Source of the DNA: Synechococcus sp. PCC 7502
GTDB lineage: Bacteria; Cyanobacteriota; Cyanobacteriia; Pseudanabaenales; Pseudanabaenaceae
Reading direction: 5' to 3'
DNA length: 64,000 nt
Assembly: GCF_000317085.1 (NCBI RefSeq)
Contig: NC_019702.1
Coordinates: forward strand, 3,254,394-3,318,393
This document shows, one piece after another, positions 16,963 through 31,078 of the stretch. The notes beneath the pieces were generated by a model. The model made no database searches. It was not told the origin of the DNA and saw only the letters and a program-made list of their open reading frames with translations. Every line of letters starts with the position of its first letter. Within the stretch, counting starts at the first letter, position 1. The position numbers and the translations under genes are program-made.

Positions 16963-18018
16963 ATGCTCAGACTTAACCTCATCTCTCTTTGGCAAAGGAT
17001 TCCCAAGGTGATTGCTTGGAGGGCAAACCTGCGATCGCATTTATTAGGATTATTTGTAATCAGTCTTAGTCTTAGTTGTTTAGCAGGCAGTTGTGATCAG
17101 TTACCAAATCGTCAGGTTCTGAGCATAGGTATTAATAACTGGGTGGGATACTCCATTGCCCTATATGCTCGTTCCTCAGGTATTTTTGCCAGGCGAGGAC
17201 TAGAAGTTAAGTTAGTTCATTTTAACAATCAACAGGATAATATTCGTGCCACAATGCGGGGTTCGCAGGATGCCAGTTTTGTACCGCTTTGGGAAGTAAT
17301 GCAGGTTGATCCCGCCAATGATAAACCAGTATTTATAATGGTTACAGACATTTCTGCTGGTTCCGATGGCATTGTGGCTAGGCAGGGTTTTAACTCCGTA
17401 AAGGGATTAAAAGGTGGACGCATTGGCGCAAAGCTCGGTACCGTTGCCCATTTAATTTTATTAGAGGCTCTAAAGTCCCATAATCTCAAACCAGAGGATG
17501 TCACAATCCAAGATGTCTCCAACGAAAGAAGTAGTAACCTACTCGAACAGGGACTTCTTGATGCGGCAGTAATGTGGGAACCAAATTTAAGTAAAACGGC
17601 TAAGGACATTGACGGCAAGGTTATTTTTACCACCAAGGATGTGGATAGTTTGGTAATTGATGGTTTAGCAACCCGATCTACTGTACTTAAGGATAATCAA
17701 GATTGGTTGTCTCGGTTTATTTTGGCGTGGTTTGATACTATTCATGCCGTAGAAACTAATCCTGATCAAGTATTTGAGGCGATCGCTAGGGAAATCAAAC
17801 AAACTAAGGCAATAGTTGCTAGGGACTATAGTGGTTTAATTAAAGGTGACATTGCCATGAATCGACGGATGTTTATACCTAATGGGCGTTTGCGTGAAGC
17901 AACGGCAGAATCCGCCAAACTGTTACGCGCCGATCAGCGCCATGGGCGAATTATCAGAGATGATGTGGAAATTAATTCTGAATTTGTCCTTAAAGCTATT
18001 AATGATTGGCAGCCATGA
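16963..18018 (+). CDS. NitT/TauT-type periplasmic solute-binding protein coupled to a histidine kinase
   Basis: A 351-residue exported protein. A long N-terminus and hydrophobic segment (26-42) end near LAGSC (40-44), a possible but imperfect lipobox. The mature part is an NMT1/SsuA-like binding fold (LSIGINNWVGYSIALYARSSGIF at 54-76, GSQDASFVPLWEV at 99-111, AVMWEPNLSK near 207-216), the family that binds nitrate, taurine, sulfonates, bicarbonate or pyrimidine precursors. The stop overlaps the start of the hybrid kinase by ATGA, so the two are translationally coupled. No permease or ATPase gene is nearby. I infer that it presents a ligand to the kinase rather than feeding a transporter. Confidence 0.85.
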   Translation: MLRLNLISLWQRIPKVIAWRANLRSHLLGLFVISLSLSCLAGSCDQLPNRQVLSIGINNWVGYSIALYARSSGIFARRGLEVKLVHFNNQQDNIRATMRGSQDASFVPLWEVMQVDPANDKPVFIMVTDISAGSDGIVARQGFNSVKGLKGGRIGAKLGTVAHLILLEALKSHNLKPEDVTIQDVSNERSSNLLEQGLLDAAVMWEPNLSKTAKDIDGKVIFTTKDVDSLVIDGLATRSTVLKDNQDWLSRFILAWFDTIHAVETNPDQVFEAIAREIKQTKAIVARDYSGLIKGDIAMNRRMFIPNGRLREATAESAKLLRADQRHGRIIRDDVEINSEFVLKAINDWQP

Positions 18019-20075
18019 GTAAAAGTCTATCCCGACAGTTACTAGGTGGGTTTGGCATATCACTTATTCTGGTTGGTATGACAACCCTATGGATTAACTA
18101 TCGCAATGTCCAAGGAGATTTAGAAATACAAGGGCAGAAAAGGGCACAATCGATCGCCCGCAGCTTGGAGTTTGCCACGGAAGGACTATTGGAATATGGA
18201 AATCTCGACATTTTAGAACGGATGACCCAAAATTTTGGTACCTTACCCACGGTACTAGAAGTAGCAATTGTTGATCCTGATGGAAAAACCATCGCCCACA
18301 ATGAATATTTTGATGAGCCTCTGCCCTATGCTGCCATGCACCCAGATTTAGCTGCAGCAATTGATCAGGCAAAGAATAGTGGTATGGAAATTACCCAGAG
18401 GACTAAAATCCATGACCGCATTGCTCTTGTCCACATGGTACCTTTTGCCAGTCACATATTTAAAAAGCAAGGTAAACGTGGCTTATCTGTCATTGCGATC
18501 GATCTTTATCAAAGTCAACAGGACGCTTGGCAAATTTTTCTAACCTCAACCGTCACCATGTTAATTGGTACTATTACTATTCTTGGTTTCATGGTGATCC
18601 TGTTGCAAAAATCGGTGTTACAGCCGCTCAAACGTCTAAATGATGCGATCTCCCGCAGCCATCAAACAGGGGAAATTGACTTACCTCAAGCCTTACCTAA
18701 TCATGAAATTGGCTTTTTGGCGCAAACTCTGATTACAGCGATCGCTCAATTACGGGACTATGAGAATTTAAAGCATGAAGAATTAACAGCTATTAATACT
18801 GAACTGGAAAACCTCAGTGTATCCCTCGAACAAAAAGTAGCGGAGCGCACCCAAGAACTCAGTCTTGCTAATGAACAATTGGAACAGGCAAAGGAAGAAG
18901 CACTGACAGCAAGTCAAGCTAAAACGGCATTTTTTACCAACATGAGTCACGAACTCAGAACTCCATTAAATGCGGTTCTAGGGTTTACCCAACTTATGCT
19001 CTACGATCACACCACGCCTCCAGATATCCGTGAACAGGTCAACACAATCTATCGCAGTGCTGAACACCTCCTTGCCCTAATCAATAGTGTTCTGGAAATA
19101 TCAAGAATTGAAGCAGGTAAGGAAACTCTAAATTGTCAAGGTTTTGATCTTCAAGATTTATTAAAAAGTGTCAGGGAATTGTTGGAACATCGAGCCAAGG
19201 AAAAGGGACTGACTTTAATATTTGAACTAGCTCCCGATCTGGAGCTAACTCTTTACAGCGATGAGATGAAACTAAAGCAGATATTAATTAATCTCCTCAA
19301 TAATGCCATCAAGTTCACCACCGCAGGACACATAACCTTGCGGGTTTCTAAATACGATCGCCAATATAATCAACAAGATCAGCAACAAGAAACCTATCTA
19401 TATTTTGAAGTTGAAGATACGGGTATAGGTATTGAATCTGAGAATTTACATAGAGTCTTTGAGGGATTTTTCCAATCTCAGGGTAATGGCGGGCGATCGC
19501 AGGAAGGAACAGGATTAGGATTAGCCATCAGTAAAAGCTTTGTTAATTTGATGGGTGGTGATCTTAAAGTTACCAGTACGGTAGGTAAAGGCTCAACCTT
19601 CTCGTTCTATATCCAGACACAACCTTGGGATAAATGTACGCCAGTACAATCCTTAGAACAGAACCTACCAGCTAACACCTTACCTCAACCTTTAAGCCCC
19701 AACTCTTTAAGGATTTTGTTGGCTGAAGATAATATCGTCAATCAAAAGGTAATGCTTAAAATGCTGTCTTACCTAGGATATATTGCTGATGTGGTAGAGA
19801 ACGGGGTAGAGGTATTAGAAGCTCTGCACCATAGGCACTATGATCTGATATTCATGGATATACAGATGCCAGTTATGGATGGACTAACCGCTACACATGA
19901 AATTTTTGCTCAATGGTCTCCACCTGATCGCCCAATGATTATTGCCCTTACCGCTAATGCTATGCAGGAAGATCGAGAAGTTTGTCTAGCCGCAGGGATG
20001 GCTGAATATTTAACCAAACCGATCAAAATTAGCCTATTACAAGAGATTTTATCTAAAGTTTCCGTTAGTAATTAA
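18015..20075 (+). CDS. Membrane hybrid histidine kinase with receiver domain
   Basis: A 686-residue sensor kinase starting at the ATG that overlaps the upstream stop (ATGA at 18015). An in-frame TTG three codons earlier is less likely. Membrane helices at 10-28 and 176-198 enclose a periplasmic sensor domain (30-175). A HAMP-like linker (200-250) and a coiled coil (250-300) follow. HisKA is at 303-365 with His312 in FFTNMSHELRTPLN; HATPase_c has its N box near 426-435 (LINLLNNAIKF), DTGIGI at 468-473 and GTGLGLAI at 498-505. The receiver domain (565-686) has phospho-acceptor Asp615 in FMDIQMP and Lys668. The binding protein made with it is its likely input; no output regulator is encoded beside it. 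Confidence 0.93.
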   Translation: MSKSLSRQLLGGFGISLILVGMTTLWINYRNVQGDLEIQGQKRAQSIARSLEFATEGLLEYGNLDILERMTQNFGTLPTVLEVAIVDPDGKTIAHNEYFDEPLPYAAMHPDLAAAIDQAKNSGMEITQRTKIHDRIALVHMVPFASHIFKKQGKRGLSVIAIDLYQSQQDAWQIFLTSTVTMLIGTITILGFMVILLQKSVLQPLKRLNDAISRSHQTGEIDLPQALPNHEIGFLAQTLITAIAQLRDYENLKHEELTAINTELENLSVSLEQKVAERTQELSLANEQLEQAKEEALTASQAKTAFFTNMSHELRTPLNAVLGFTQLMLYDHTTPPDIREQVNTIYRSAEHLLALINSVLEISRIEAGKETLNCQGFDLQDLLKSVRELLEHRAKEKGLTLIFELAPDLELTLYSDEMKLKQILINLLNNAIKFTTAGHITLRVSKYDRQYNQQDQQQETYLYFEVEDTGIGIESENLHRVFEGFFQSQGNGGRSQEGTGLGLAISKSFVNLMGGDLKVTSTVGKGSTFSFYIQTQPWDKCTPVQSLEQNLPANTLPQPLSPNSLRILLAEDNIVNQKVMLKMLSYLGYIADVVENGVEVLEALHHRHYDLIFMDIQMPVMDGLTATHEIFAQWSPPDRPMIIALTANAMQEDREVCLAAGMAEYLTKPIKISLLQEILSKVSVSN

Positions 20076-21868: not shown

Positions 21869-24007
21869 ATGCGATCGCTCACCCATTTAAGCATTAAATC
21901 CAAGTTGATTATCATGCTATTGGTAGTCAGCAGTTGCTCTATTCTAGTGACAGCATACATTAGCTATCAAAGCGGTAAATCCAATCTTACTGATCGAGTT
22001 TTTAACCAACTAACTAGTGTTAGGGCATCTAAGGCATACCAAATAGAGTCCTACTTTCAGACCCTCCGCAACCATGTTCAAACCCTAGGTAAAAGTCCGT
22101 TTGTCATTGATTCTTTAAAAGAATTTGATGCTGGTTATAGTCAATTAGCACAAAACCCCAAAAATATTGATAAGTTGCAGCCAAAACTAGATGAATATTA
22201 CCGTGATCAGTTTCTAGCCAGACTTAGCAAAGCTGACTCAAGCATTCAACCGACTGGCTCTGTTCTGAAATTCTTTGAACCTAAAGCCTTAGCCTCTCGA
22301 TATTTACAATCCCAATACATTGCGGCTAATCCCTATCCTGTCGGTAAAAAGCACTTATTAGATGATGCCAAAGATGGTAGTACCTATAGCAAAGTTCATG
22401 CCCGCTATCATCCGATTTTTCGCAATATTATTGAGAAATTTGGCTATTACGACCTGTTTTTAATTAACCCTGAAGGCAGAATTGTCTATACGGTTTATAA
22501 AGAAACAGACTATTCCACCAGCCTCAGACAAGATGCCTATAATGAAACCAATCTAGCCCGACTCATTACTCAAGTCCGTCAAGAAAAAGAACGAGACTAT
22601 GCCCGCATCATTGACTTTGAGTCCTATGCTCCATCCTACGGTGCGCCTGCGGCATTTATAGCTACACCAATTTTTGATCAGTCCCAGTTTATCGGGGCGA
22701 TCGCCGTGCAAATTCCCGTTAATGAAATCAATAATGTGATGACAGGAAATCGAAACTGGGAAAGTGATGGCTTAGGCAAAAGCGGCGAGACTTACTTAGT
22801 TGGACAGGACTATTTAATGCGATCGGTATCCAGATTTTTAGTCGAGACCCCTAATCAGTATCTTGAAACGCTGCGATCGCTTGATGTCAGCGAAAAAATC
22901 CTTAAGCGCATCCAGCAATTTGAAACATCGATCCTAGAGCAGAAAGTGGCAACCGTTGGTTCCAAAGAAGCCATAGCAGGAAAAAAGGGTATCCAAATTA
23001 TTAACGACTATCGTAACATTCCCGTTTTAAGTTCCTATGCGCCCTTACGCATTGATGAACTAGATTGGGTGATCTTATCTGAAATAGATTTAGATGAAGC
23101 ATATGCCCCAATCAAAGCCTTTGAGCGACAACTGCTGATTTCTGCCACTATCCTGATGCTAGTAGTTACCCTATTAGCTATGGGGCTGGCATATTTATTT
23201 GTAAAACCCATTAACCAATTAATTGCTAATTCCCTAAAAATTGAAAAAGGCAGACTAGATGCCATTGTTCCCCTAAACTCCCAAGATGAATTTGGGGAAC
23301 TGGCAAAATCCTTTAATGCCATGGTCAATAGCCTGCGCGCCCAGACTGAATTAGTAGAACAAAAAAACCTAGAAAATGAACGGCTGCTATTAAGCGTATT
23401 TCCCCTAGCAATCGCTAAACGACTGAAACGAGGCGAGAGAAATATTGCGGAAAGAGTTGCCAATGTTGCCGTACTGTTTGCAGAAATCACAGGATTTACT
23501 AAACTTGAAGCCTCCTTAAGTGCCTATGAAGTTGTGAGTATTCTCAATGATCTAGTGGGTGCCTTCGATGAAGCAGCCGAAAAATACGGCATTGAAAAAA
23601 TTAAAACCATAGGCGATCGCTACATGGCTGTCTGTGGACTTTCCCTACCCTACCTCGATCACGATAAAAGAGCTATAGATTTTGCCATTGAAATGTCTGC
23701 GATCGTGCGGAGGTTTAACCATGATCGCCGCTTTCAGTTAAATATTCGCACAGGTATTCACTCAGGTAATGTAATTGCAGGAATCGTCGGCAAAAACAAA
23801 TATATCTACGATGTATGGGGCGACACAGTTGATTACTGCCAGCATTTAGTCTCCCTAAGCCCTATAGGTAACATCACAGTTTCATCAGAGATTTATCACA
23901 GGTTAGAAGACATCTATGAATTCAAACCTTTAGAATCTGCGGAGTCTAATTCAGAAACAAAAAATTGGATTTTAAGTACTAATCACCCCGACAACCTAAA
24001 GAGTTAA
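21869..24007 (+). CDS. Membrane sensor with HAMP and degenerate class III nucleotide cyclase domain
   Basis: A 712-residue protein. Membrane helices at 11-32 and 422-445 enclose a large periplasmic dCache-like sensor (35-415, with DLFLINPEGRIVYTV and GKSGETYLVGQDYLMRS). HAMP is at 446-500 and a class III cyclase homology domain at 525-690. Of the usual catalytic residues, the adenine-selecting Lys579 (IKTIGD), the metal-binding Asp583 and Asp648 (YDVWGD) are present. The first metal Asp is Glu539 (LFAEITGFT). The transition-state Asn is Asp655 and the catalytic Arg is His659 in GDTVDYCQHL, where active enzymes have TVNxAxR. Cyclase activity is therefore doubtful; a regulatory or binding role is possible. 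Confidence 0.88.
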   Translation: MRSLTHLSIKSKLIIMLLVVSSCSILVTAYISYQSGKSNLTDRVFNQLTSVRASKAYQIESYFQTLRNHVQTLGKSPFVIDSLKEFDAGYSQLAQNPKNIDKLQPKLDEYYRDQFLARLSKADSSIQPTGSVLKFFEPKALASRYLQSQYIAANPYPVGKKHLLDDAKDGSTYSKVHARYHPIFRNIIEKFGYYDLFLINPEGRIVYTVYKETDYSTSLRQDAYNETNLARLITQVRQEKERDYARIIDFESYAPSYGAPAAFIATPIFDQSQFIGAIAVQIPVNEINNVMTGNRNWESDGLGKSGETYLVGQDYLMRSVSRFLVETPNQYLETLRSLDVSEKILKRIQQFETSILEQKVATVGSKEAIAGKKGIQIINDYRNIPVLSSYAPLRIDELDWVILSEIDLDEAYAPIKAFERQLLISATILMLVVTLLAMGLAYLFVKPINQLIANSLKIEKGRLDAIVPLNSQDEFGELAKSFNAMVNSLRAQTELVEQKNLENERLLLSVFPLAIAKRLKRGERNIAERVANVAVLFAEITGFTKLEASLSAYEVVSILNDLVGAFDEAAEKYGIEKIKTIGDRYMAVCGLSLPYLDHDKRAIDFAIEMSAIVRRFNHDRRFQLNIRTGIHSGNVIAGIVGKNKYIYDVWGDTVDYCQHLVSLSPIGNITVSSEIYHRLEDIYEFKPLESAESNSETKNWILSTNHPDNLKS

Positions 24008-24100
24008 GCAAGATTATAATAATTGGTACCATGTATTGCTTAGATCGTAAATCTGTACTAAACTAGCAATCTAATCTTGGTACCATATTTAATTAATCAA

Positions 24101-24649
24101 ATGCCTAATAAAAACGCCCTTGGTGGCAGGGGTAAAAAAGCCCCCTACAAAACTGAACATTATCGAATTCCTGCGCCGATTAAACCCCTTGTCCAAGCCC
24201 TAGCCAATCACTATCGTGAACTAGCAAGTCAAAACAAGGGCGAATTAAGCTTTGCCGATTTAGTTGATCAGATCAAAGAGCAAGCCATAAGCCTTGACCA
24301 AGCCAAGTTAATCAAAGTTCCTACTATCTCCGCCTATGAATTCACTCAAAATCTTTATCGAGTCTGGTTTACAGAAGCAGAAACTAAAGCAGGTAGAGAT
24401 TGTTTTGGTCAACCAATTTTGCTAGCTACATTAGCCCAAAAGATGGAACTAGAAACAAAGACCTTTTTAGCACTATTAACTCAAGTTGAATCAGACCTAC
24501 TTGAACTCATACCTACTAAAAAGAAAAACTATAAGGTTGATAATAGACGAGTCGGTGCCTTGACATTTCATACCCCACTATCAGTCAGACCAGATCATAT
24601 TTCAGTTTCCAAAAAAACAATAAGCGAAACAGTTGACAAACCGATATAG
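24101..24649 (+). CDS. Conserved cyanobacterial protein of unknown function (GGRGKKAPY motif)
   Basis: A 182-residue soluble protein from the ATG at 24101. An upstream TTG would add eight residues without family support. It begins MPNKNALGGRGKKAPYKTEHYRIP and continues with IKPLVQALANHYREL, a pattern I recall from many cyanobacterial proteins of unknown function. The basic N-terminus and helical segment would suit nucleic-acid binding, but this is inference. No catalytic motif is seen. Its last codons carry the -35 box of the rRNA operon promoter, so the two loci are physically fused. Confidence 0.7.
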   Translation: MPNKNALGGRGKKAPYKTEHYRIPAPIKPLVQALANHYRELASQNKGELSFADLVDQIKEQAISLDQAKLIKVPTISAYEFTQNLYRVWFTEAETKAGRDCFGQPILLATLAQKMELETKTFLALLTQVESDLLELIPTKKKNYKVDNRRVGALTFHTPLSVRPDHISVSKKTISETVDKPI

Positions 24650-24661
24650 CTTTGTTATATT
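24633..24661 (+). promoter_or_regulatory. rRNA operon promoter
   Basis: TTGACA at 24633-24638, a 17-bp spacer and TATATT at 24656-24661 make a near-consensus housekeeping sigma promoter about 160 bp before the 16S gene. The -35 box lies inside the end of the upstream coding region and the stop codon falls in the spacer. Strength and position fit rRNA transcription. Confidence 0.8.
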
Positions 24662-24821
24662 CAATAAGCGCAAAACGGTTAAGAAAAGCCGAAACGCCTG
24701 AACCATAGACAACTCAATAGTTTGAAAGCCAAGCAAGAAAACTTCGTCAAAGAAAATTTGAAGAAATTCAAGCAAAAAAGCGTTTAAGAAACGCAAAAAA
24801 CGAGCAACTCAACTCAACAAC

Positions 24822-26305
<1,484 letters not shown>

Positions 26306-26425
26306 TAGGGAGACCTACTTCTACTAGACCGAAACAATACAGTAATAAGTCAGTAGTAAGCAATCCCAAGGTCGGTCGAAGTCAACAGCAAAGCTTTCAA
26401 ACTATGTCTAGTTCAACTAACAAGA

Positions 26426-26499
26426 GGGCTATTAGCTCAGCTGGTTAGAGCGCACGGCTGATAACCGTGAGGTCCCTGGTTCGAGTCCAGGATGGCCCA
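26426..26499 (+). tRNA. tRNA-Ile (anticodon GAT)
   Basis: A 74-nt tRNA in the 16S-23S spacer. Acceptor strands are GGGCTAT and ATGGCCC, D arm AGCTCAGCTGGTTAGAGC, anticodon loop GGCTGATAACC with GAT, and T arm CTGGTTCGAGTCCAG. This is the usual first spacer tRNA of cyanobacterial rrn operons. Confidence 0.97.
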
Positions 26500-26531
26500 C
26501 TAAAGAAGTGATAGACATAAAACTTCTTAAA

Positions 26532-26604
26532 GGGGGTATGGCTCAGTTGGTAGAGCGCCTGCTTTGCACGCAGGATGTCAGCGGTTCGAGTCCGCTTACC
26601 TCCA
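26532..26604 (+). tRNA. tRNA-Ala (anticodon TGC)
   Basis: A 73-nt tRNA in the 16S-23S spacer, 32 bp after tRNA-Ile. Acceptor strands are GGGGGTA and TACCTCC with one G-U pair, the anticodon arm is CCTGCTTTGCACGCAGG with TGC, and the T arm is GCGGTTCGAGTCCGC. The Ile-Ala order is standard for spacer tRNAs. Confidence 0.97.
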
Positions 26605-26807
26605 CTGAAACATAGGCAATAGTAAAATGTACAGCAACTAATCTTGTGAAAACAAGACAGACTGCTGGAAAATTCCAGTCAGAACCTTGAAAACTGCATA
26701 GTAATAGTCAAAAGTAACTTTTCAAAAAGTTCTTTTCTGGGTAACTAGAAAGAACAAAATGAAAACAAGCAAGTAGATATCAATGTAAAGCGAACAAAGC
26801 AAATTGT

Positions 26808-29625
<2,818 letters not shown>

Positions 29626-29711
29626 CAATAATTGTTAGCTAATACATTTAATTTACATGACTATTACTGTGCAGCTTTTAAGGTTTTGGGTAAATTAAGC
29701 CTTAGTGATTT

Positions 29712-29830
29712 GCTTGGTGCTTATGGTGCAGTAGAACCACTCTGATCCATCCCGAACTCAGGTGTGAAATGCTGTTACGGTGAAGATACTTTAGGGGTAG
29801 CTCTATGGGAAAATAGCTCGGTGCCAAGCT
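29712..29830 (+). rRNA. rrf: 5S ribosomal RNA
   Basis: About 119 nt, 87 bp after the 23S gene. GCTTGGTGC at the 5' end pairs with GTGCCAAGC at the 3' end. The internal CCATCCCGAACTCA block is the 5S signature. Ends are estimated from the terminal stem. Confidence 0.93.
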
Positions 29831-29842
29831 TAATATTTAACG

Positions 29843-29882
29843 AAAAGAGGTAGTAAAACATAACTACCTCTTTTCTGTTTTT
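29843..29882 (+). terminator. Rho-independent terminator of the rRNA operon
   Basis: A perfect 12-bp stem, AAAAGAGGTAGT (29843-29854) against ACTACCTCTTTT (29863-29874), with an eight-base loop. It is followed by CTGTTTTTCC. It lies 12 bp after the 5S gene and closes the operon. Confidence 0.9.
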
Positions 29883-29975
29883 CCTTTTGTAGACTTAATG
29901 GATATTCAAATAATGATAGTTCTAAAGATGTAGGGATGCTGATAAAGAAAGCAAAGCCTAGCTTGAATCTCAGCG

Positions 29976-30430
29976 TTATAAAGAAATACTCGATGAATTA
30001 CTCAGAGGCTGCAAGGTTAGAAGTAGTGAAAAGTGACAAATCATTGCAAGACGTGCATTATAGTCATGAATAAAGTACCAAATAGCCCCAATATGATTGC
30101 CTAACTTCCCAGAGAAAGACAGAGTTTGTCGCACCAAAAGAGAAATGCGTTGACGAAAAGTATTATTTAATCTTTCAATAGGATTAGTTTGACCGCTCTT
30201 CTCACCCACAGCACGATGACGTATACAAGGAATTAAATTATTAATTACTTTAGAGTAAACCTGCCAAAAGTGATTATAAGCAACAGTATACTGACGGTAA
30301 ATAGGAGGTAACCTCTGCCAAAGTTTAAGAGCAGATTTACGACTTCTATCACCAACAGAACATTCGATAATTTCTCTTGTATTGAGATCAATAACTAAGT
30401 ATATATAGCACTTAAAATTCTTGGAGAGAA
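29976..30430 (-). pseudogene. IS1-family transposase (InsB-type), 5'-truncated
   Basis: An open minus-strand frame from about 30430 to 29976 reads SKNFKCYIYLVIDLNTREII, then SALKLWQRLPPIYRQYTVAYNHFW, then GEKSGQTNPIERLNNTFRQR and GKLGNHIGAIWYFIHDYN. These are the second half of the IS1 DDE transposase. The N-terminal InsA zinc-finger part and the first catalytic Asp are absent, and the frame abuts the oppositely directed IS1 remnant. The tail after HDYNARL no longer matches and runs on to a later stop. It is a decayed remnant just downstream of the rRNA terminator. Confidence 0.8.
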
Positions 30431-31050
30431 CAAACGATCACATTCCCCAGAATCAACCAATATCAAAAGCAAAAACTGAGCTAATTGGCAAACTACTTTT
30501 AGAACGAATTGTGATGAGACCAATTGTGCGGGTTAGCAATATTTCAAGGCAGTGGGTATAAAGTTATATTAATGGGCAATCACGAAGTGTAGAACAACAT
30601 GTCAAAGTGATAGCTAAAAAAAAGGTGAGGCTGACGATAGAGTGTGATGAACTTTGGTCATTTGTAAACAATAGTAAAAATAAAGTATGGATTTGGTTAG
30701 CAATTGATCGCCAAATCAGAGAAATTATTGGTGTATACCTTGGTAGTCAAGATGCAGCATTGAGGTTATGGCAATCTTTACCAAGTGTGTATCGATAATG
30801 TGTTGATTTTTCTGCAAAGCTTACGGTTGTGTTTTACCCCAAAAAGGACATAAAGCTGTGGGTAAGGAATCTTGACAGACTAATCATATTGAATGATTTA
30901 ATTGCACTTTAAGGCAAAGGGTTGCTCATCTTGTCAGGAAAACTCTTTCTTTTTCCAAAAAGTTAGAGAATCATATTGGAGCTATTTAATTATTCATCCA
31001 TCATTACAATACTGATATTCAAGCAAAACTCTTCACCATCTGTGCCCCCT
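30431..31050 (+). pseudogene. Second IS1-family transposase remnant, opposite orientation
   Basis: Plus-strand sequence reads KTELIGKLLLERIVMRP, RQWV, a stop, then SYINGQSRSVEQHVKV and KKKVRLTIECDELWSFVNN (the InsA/InsB join of IS1), then IWLAIDRQIREIIGVYLGS and LWQSLPSVYR followed by a stop at 30796. Beyond it the sequence is still recognisable in shifted frames (RQRVAHLVRKTLSFSKKLENHIGAI) to about 31000. At least two stops and a deletion make it inactive. It is more related to the HIERFNCTLRQR subtype than the neighbouring copy, so the two were separate insertions and not one duplicated element. Confidence 0.75.
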
Positions 31051-31078
31051 CCTTACCTAGTAGTCCTCAAACCTCAAT

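Follow-up and report, generated by a model that had tools for sequence, protein, structure and literature searches.

A receptor of Synechococcus sp. PCC 7502 with a catalytically degenerate cyclase-like domain and its putative coupling to an MscS channel

For what is the output domain of a receptor kept when it has the fold of a class III cyclase and lacks part of the residues by which such a fold makes cAMP? The question is raised by a gene in a 64,000-nucleotide stretch of Synechococcus sp. PCC 7502 (contig NC_019702.1, positions 3,254,394 to 3,318,393; hereafter the window), which encodes a protein with a double-Cache (dCache) sensor, a HAMP domain and a cyclase-like domain (Table 1).

Table 1. 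Features of the receptor gene, in window coordinates
Feature	Position	Strand	Basis
dCache-HAMP-cyclase-like receptor gene	21869..24007	+	712 aa ORF; 100% match G000:C3:3276262-3278397
Double-Cache sensor, periplasmic, about residues 36-420	21974..23128	+	Partial PF02743 (dCache_1) match, residues 192-326, below the Pfam cut-off; region well folded in AF2 model
HAMP, residues 440-491	23186..23341	+	PF00672, E 4.7e-12
Cyclase-like class III domain, residues 527-689, catalytically degenerate	23447..23935	+	PF00211, E 9.9e-43
Glu539 replacing first metal Asp	23483..23485	+	Codon GAA; alignment
Lys579 retained, adenine-selecting	23603..23605	+	Codon AAA; 55/55 in near clade
Asp583 retained, second metal Asp	23615..23617	+	Codon GAT; 52/55 in near clade
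Asp648 retained, second adenine-selecting residue	23810..23812	+	Codon GAT; 55/55 in near clade
Asp655 replacing transition-state Asn	23831..23833	+	Codon GAT; alignment
His659 replacing catalytic Arg	23843..23845	+	Codon CAT; no Arg in 55/55 of near clade

The roles of the catalytic residues are established from mammalian and mycobacterial class III enzymes. Alignment with solved cyclases and about 110 cyanobacterial cyclase domains places Glu539, Lys579, Asp583, Asp648, Asp655 and His659 of the window protein at the positions of the canonical D-K-D-D-N-R set; that is, the adenine-selecting Lys and Asp are present (K579, D648), whereas one of the two metal-binding Asp residues is a Glu (E539, D583) and both the transition-state Asn and the Arg are replaced (D655, H659). 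The original prediction had named these three replacements as well as the retained Lys579, and the open reading frame, the alignment and the codons bear it out. The phosphate-contacting KGKG loop is likewise lacking from the window protein in the alignment. The substitutions do not result from a sequencing slip, since E539 and D655 recur in a same-genus orthologue (84% identity), in which position 659 is a Ser. In solved cyclase dimers the pair of metal-binding Asp residues is contributed by one half and the base-selecting and transition-state residues by the other (PMC4174876), so that a homodimer of the window protein is predicted to contain an altered metal site and to miss both transition-state residues. 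Nor did the family alignment reveal a compensating residue that might supply the function of the Arg, for which the prediction had left room: the Lys or Arg at position 661 of relatives also occurs in members that keep Arg659, and the window protein has Val661.

The rest of the fold is well kept, as had been proposed. The domain matches the class III cyclase family (PF00211), and in an AlphaFold model of the protein (mean pLDDT 79.9, from a 28-sequence alignment) the cyclase fold is retained and matches those of Rv1625c (7yz9, TMt 0.87) and of the rhodopsin-cyclase domain of RhGC (5oyh, TMt 0.89). A simple Nei-Gojobori calculation on the window protein and its sister, a pair whose synonymous sites are near saturation, gives dN/dS ratios of 0.058 for the cyclase domain and 0.052 for the sensor; other pairs have cyclase-domain values of about 0 to 0.15. 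The cyclase-like domain is thus maintained under strong purifying selection in spite of lacking the standard catalytic set, which strengthens the earlier suggestion that it is selected for something other than standard cAMP synthesis.

Loss of catalytic residues is not a peculiarity of the window protein. Full-length relatives were found in 81 of 390 Cyanobacteria genomes by searches of whole genomes and named contigs, and in 109 distinct family proteins that were read for the six catalytic positions the first metal Asp is present in 53, the Lys in 86, the second metal Asp in 73, Asp648 in 88 and the Asn in 66 but the Arg in only 12; the complete D-K-D-D-N-R set occurs in only three. A KGKG-type loop near the C terminus is found in none of 61 family domains as compared to 41 of 50 other cyclase domains, the latter being biased toward high scorers, and almost every other class III domain sampled from Cyanobacteria is intact. 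A single branch (SH-aLRT 96) separates the family (63 domains), which shares the architecture of the window protein, from the other cyclase domains (48). Many members read DKDDNA and miss only the Arg and the KGKG loop. Among the 55 nearest relatives the Lys and Asp648 are invariant and the Asn is retained in 46, whereas the Arg is absent from all; nucleotide sensing, one of the roles originally envisaged, would therefore still be compatible with the base-selecting pair.

The way in which the domain is disabled differs by lineage: members of the DKDDNA clade have lost the Arg and those reading DKSDNR the second metal Asp, and HNTSYS and SNDHAQ retain almost none of the positions. The window protein groups with its same-genus sister (Glu/Asp/Ser at 539/655/659) and then with L043 (Glu/Asp/Ala) and L044 (Glu/Asn/Glu). 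On the family trees, which are quick trees in which long rows are possibly misplaced, parsimony requires at least five changes for Glu539, at least four for Asp655, at least two for His659 and at least seven to eight for Arg659. Glu539 and Asp655 hence have several independent origins each and His659 is nearly confined to the window protein. The tree and the state counts rule out that the E/D/H combination defines a clade, as had been considered; what the clade has in common is the loss of Arg659. Outside the Cyanobacteria, as covered by one pattern scan and a plasmid collection, full-length homologues with the same dCache-HAMP-cyclase architecture are encoded on large rhizobial plasmids (37% identity over 96% of the length). 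These retain all six residues and the KGKG loop, unlike the window protein, and no channel gene was found near them. An active enzyme is therefore the likely ancestor of the family.

In the cyanobacterial loci, clustering of the flanking open reading frames revealed one recurring neighbour, an MscS channel with a C-terminal cNMP-binding domain. At no fewer than 92 of the 102 family loci with enough sequence, a count that includes two loci scored by eye (L071 and L134), it is the next gene downstream and has the same orientation as the receptor gene, often with a 4-base overlap or a gap of 0-60 bases; the gene order is reversed in two loci (L085, L220), and in a few the channel is 4-7 kb off (G043, G021) or at another place. 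Of 194 related genomes, all 44 that contain the receptor also have the channel, as does 1 of the 150 without a detected receptor (Fisher p 5e-43, a value inflated by relatedness; the genomes with neither gene were assumed to be the same set in both searches). The single exception, G095, has a truncated receptor, a C-terminal part that is cut at a contig edge (L280). The window genome also contains the channel (G000:C3:1546618-1548048, 76% identical to that of L043) but 1.7 Mb away from the receptor gene, and in the sister genome it is likewise present and unlinked. What follows the receptor gene in the window is an unrelated 190-residue open reading frame (24077-24649), which has no Pfam or NCBIfam match and adjoins the receptor in the sister genome too (L040), and right after it an rRNA operon (24822-29829; 16S, tRNA-Ile, tRNA-Ala, 23S, 5S), which explains why the stretch 24650-31078 is poor in open reading frames. 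A truncated remnant of the channel at this site can therefore be dismissed, and the separation looks like a genus-wide rearrangement.

The partner channel has itself an unusual nucleotide pocket. At the position of the phosphate-binding Arg, as set by alignment with PKA/PKG-type domains whose Arg aligns with a Ser here, the 93 partner channels have Ser (89) or Thr (4) and never Arg, while other cNMP-binding domains of the same genome keep it (PRTATV in L229, PRSAS in L231). The ribose-binding Glu is mostly retained (76/93). The Arg is also absent from the channels that are paired with the three complete DKDDNR cyclases; as these three members sit in channel-linked loci, loss of the six residues is not strictly required for pairing. 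Together, the residue losses of the receptor and the Arg-less pocket would mean that both halves of the pair have departed from cyclic-nucleotide chemistry.

The family-wide loss of residues, the near-constant pairing with the channel and the altered pocket suggest that control of the channel by the receptor does not involve cAMP synthesis, and we consider it somewhat probable that the protein is a receptor of the pseudo-cyclase type, coupled to an MscS channel that is dedicated to it. A stimulus perceived by the periplasmic dCache sensor would be passed on via HAMP to the class III cyclase-like dimer. With Lys579/Asp648 in place, the dimer probably continues to bind a purine nucleotide, but its rate of cAMP formation is presumably too low to be of use. 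It would then most likely control the MscS channel, which is normally encoded by the next gene and has been moved 1.7 Mb away in the window species, by direct contact, possibly with the cNMP-binding-like domain of the channel. Loss of catalysis, nucleotide binding, ligand, physical contact and gating are inferred. In its strongest form, in which enzyme and pocket have both dropped the messenger and the cyclase fold serves as a protein ligand of the channel, the proposal is tentative, and we would put it at somewhat less than an even chance. Then again, class III cyclases mutated at the Arg or the Asn can retain trace activity, and strict linkage could equally come from a diffusible messenger.

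The main competitor of a receptor acting without cAMP is a two-gene pathway in which the receptor might still be an enzyme, slow or with an altered product, and the altered pocket of the channel might read a non-standard messenger. Strict pairing with a channel that carries a cyclic nucleotide-binding domain (CNBD), the largely retained Lys579/Asp648 and Asp583, and the change of the pocket Arg to Ser or Thr in all partners are consistent with this, and there is precedent in the kinetoplastid PKA, where a CNB domain can switch its ligand upon replacement of the Arg (PMC10959531). However, the lineages have lost different residues (first or second metal Asp, Asn, Arg), some of them nearly all, and the pair persists, which argues against a common altered chemistry since that should fix the same changes. 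Moreover, the ribose-binding Glu that is diagnostic of the kinetoplastid, nucleoside-binding type of CNB domain is missing from the partner pocket, and we have rejected an assignment to that type. On balance we regard a slow or altered-product enzyme as unlikely.

Could the protein instead regulate a true cyclase, as had also been proposed, by forming heterodimers with one of class III? The mammalian C1 domain and the subunits of soluble guanylate cyclase (sGC) resemble it as cyclase-fold halves that miss part of the catalytic set; in a solved mammalian C1 (AC8) the Asn is even replaced by an Asp and the Arg by another residue, and the window genome encodes a canonical HAMP-type cyclase (L001). 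These proteins however act in heterodimers in which a second half complements the first (C1/C2, sGC alpha/beta), and no complementary half was found here. In a Chlorogloea genome (G101, completeness not stated) no other PF00211 domain was detected, and G058 and G298, both 99% complete, each have one other class III domain, of a distant subclass. True-cyclase regulation is thus unlikely as a general function and, with the channel being the conserved genomic partner, we hold it to be distinctly improbable for the window protein.

We give a similarly poor chance to the possibility that the receptor is an ordinary cyclase whose substitutions are tolerated and which feeds cAMP to a cAMP-gated bCNG channel. 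Adenylate cyclases near a cAMP-regulated MscS channel are described in a study of marine Synechococcus (PMC7522525), and three members have DKDDNR intact; yet the window protein has the E/D/H replacements and no KGKG loop, and the phosphate-binding Arg occurs in no partner. Finally, a decaying, pseudogene-like remnant, which would fit the unlinked channel of this genus, is largely refuted by the selection signal, and the intact open reading frame and the channel kept elsewhere in both genus genomes make it very improbable indeed.

Among known systems, the cyanobacterial CyaG-type cyclases likewise contain a HAMP-linked class III domain with the Lys/Asp adenine pair but keep DKDDNR and KGKG and fall on the other side of the branch that defines the family. 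The bCNG channels (Caldwell 2010; Ss-bCNGa 2012) share the MscS and cNMP_binding domain pair, whereas the phosphate-binding Arg is replaced in 93 of 93 partner channels here and the partner is a dedicated, putative pseudo-cyclase. Pycsar also consists of two genes, a class III cyclase (PycC) and a CNBD effector. The window protein, with its catalytic residues lost and a dCache sensor present, obtains no PADLOC score that is more than weak and generic (35 bits or less), and beyond the CNBD there is no match to a TIR effector, nor an effector of the listed type; we therefore do not count the pair as Pycsar. We found no account in the open-access literature of the lost catalytic residues, of the channel without the Arg or of how strictly the two genes are paired.

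Of the cyanobacterial genomes sampled, roughly one in five carries the receptor, and 'adenylate/guanylate cyclase' is the annotation given to its relatives. If our reading is correct, cyclase counts per cyanobacterial genome are inflated and the label 'cAMP-gated' is wrong for some MscS channels. The pair would then represent a bacterial second-messenger pathway that has lost its messenger while both proteins stayed paired. As a concrete system of two genes it lends itself to the question of how a ligand from outside might govern a channel of the MscS family.

Several observations were made beside these. Elsewhere in the window, a gene for an NMT1/THI5-like binding protein overlaps that of a hybrid histidine kinase (16963-20075), likely a two-gene sensing pair, and the window genome encodes a further degenerate class III domain that reads S-N-V-I-N-R (L009, G000:C3:682146-682646). 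Argonema antarcticum (G099) has four receptor paralogues (L043, L135, L136, L137) of unequal decay, each with its own channel downstream. On a Leptolyngbyaceae contig (L053:105-5930) a receptor, a channel and a second, split receptor, which reads DKDDND, lie in tandem, and tandem copies of receptor and/or channel in Symploca (L070:8431-11497, L071:5541-13732) suggest duplication of the module. The same sensor module is also joined to an MCP signalling domain in Anabaena catenula (L078:5932-8421) and to a SpoIIE phosphatase domain in a Bacteroidetes MAG (L080:5983-8301), which indicates that output domains have been swapped on it.
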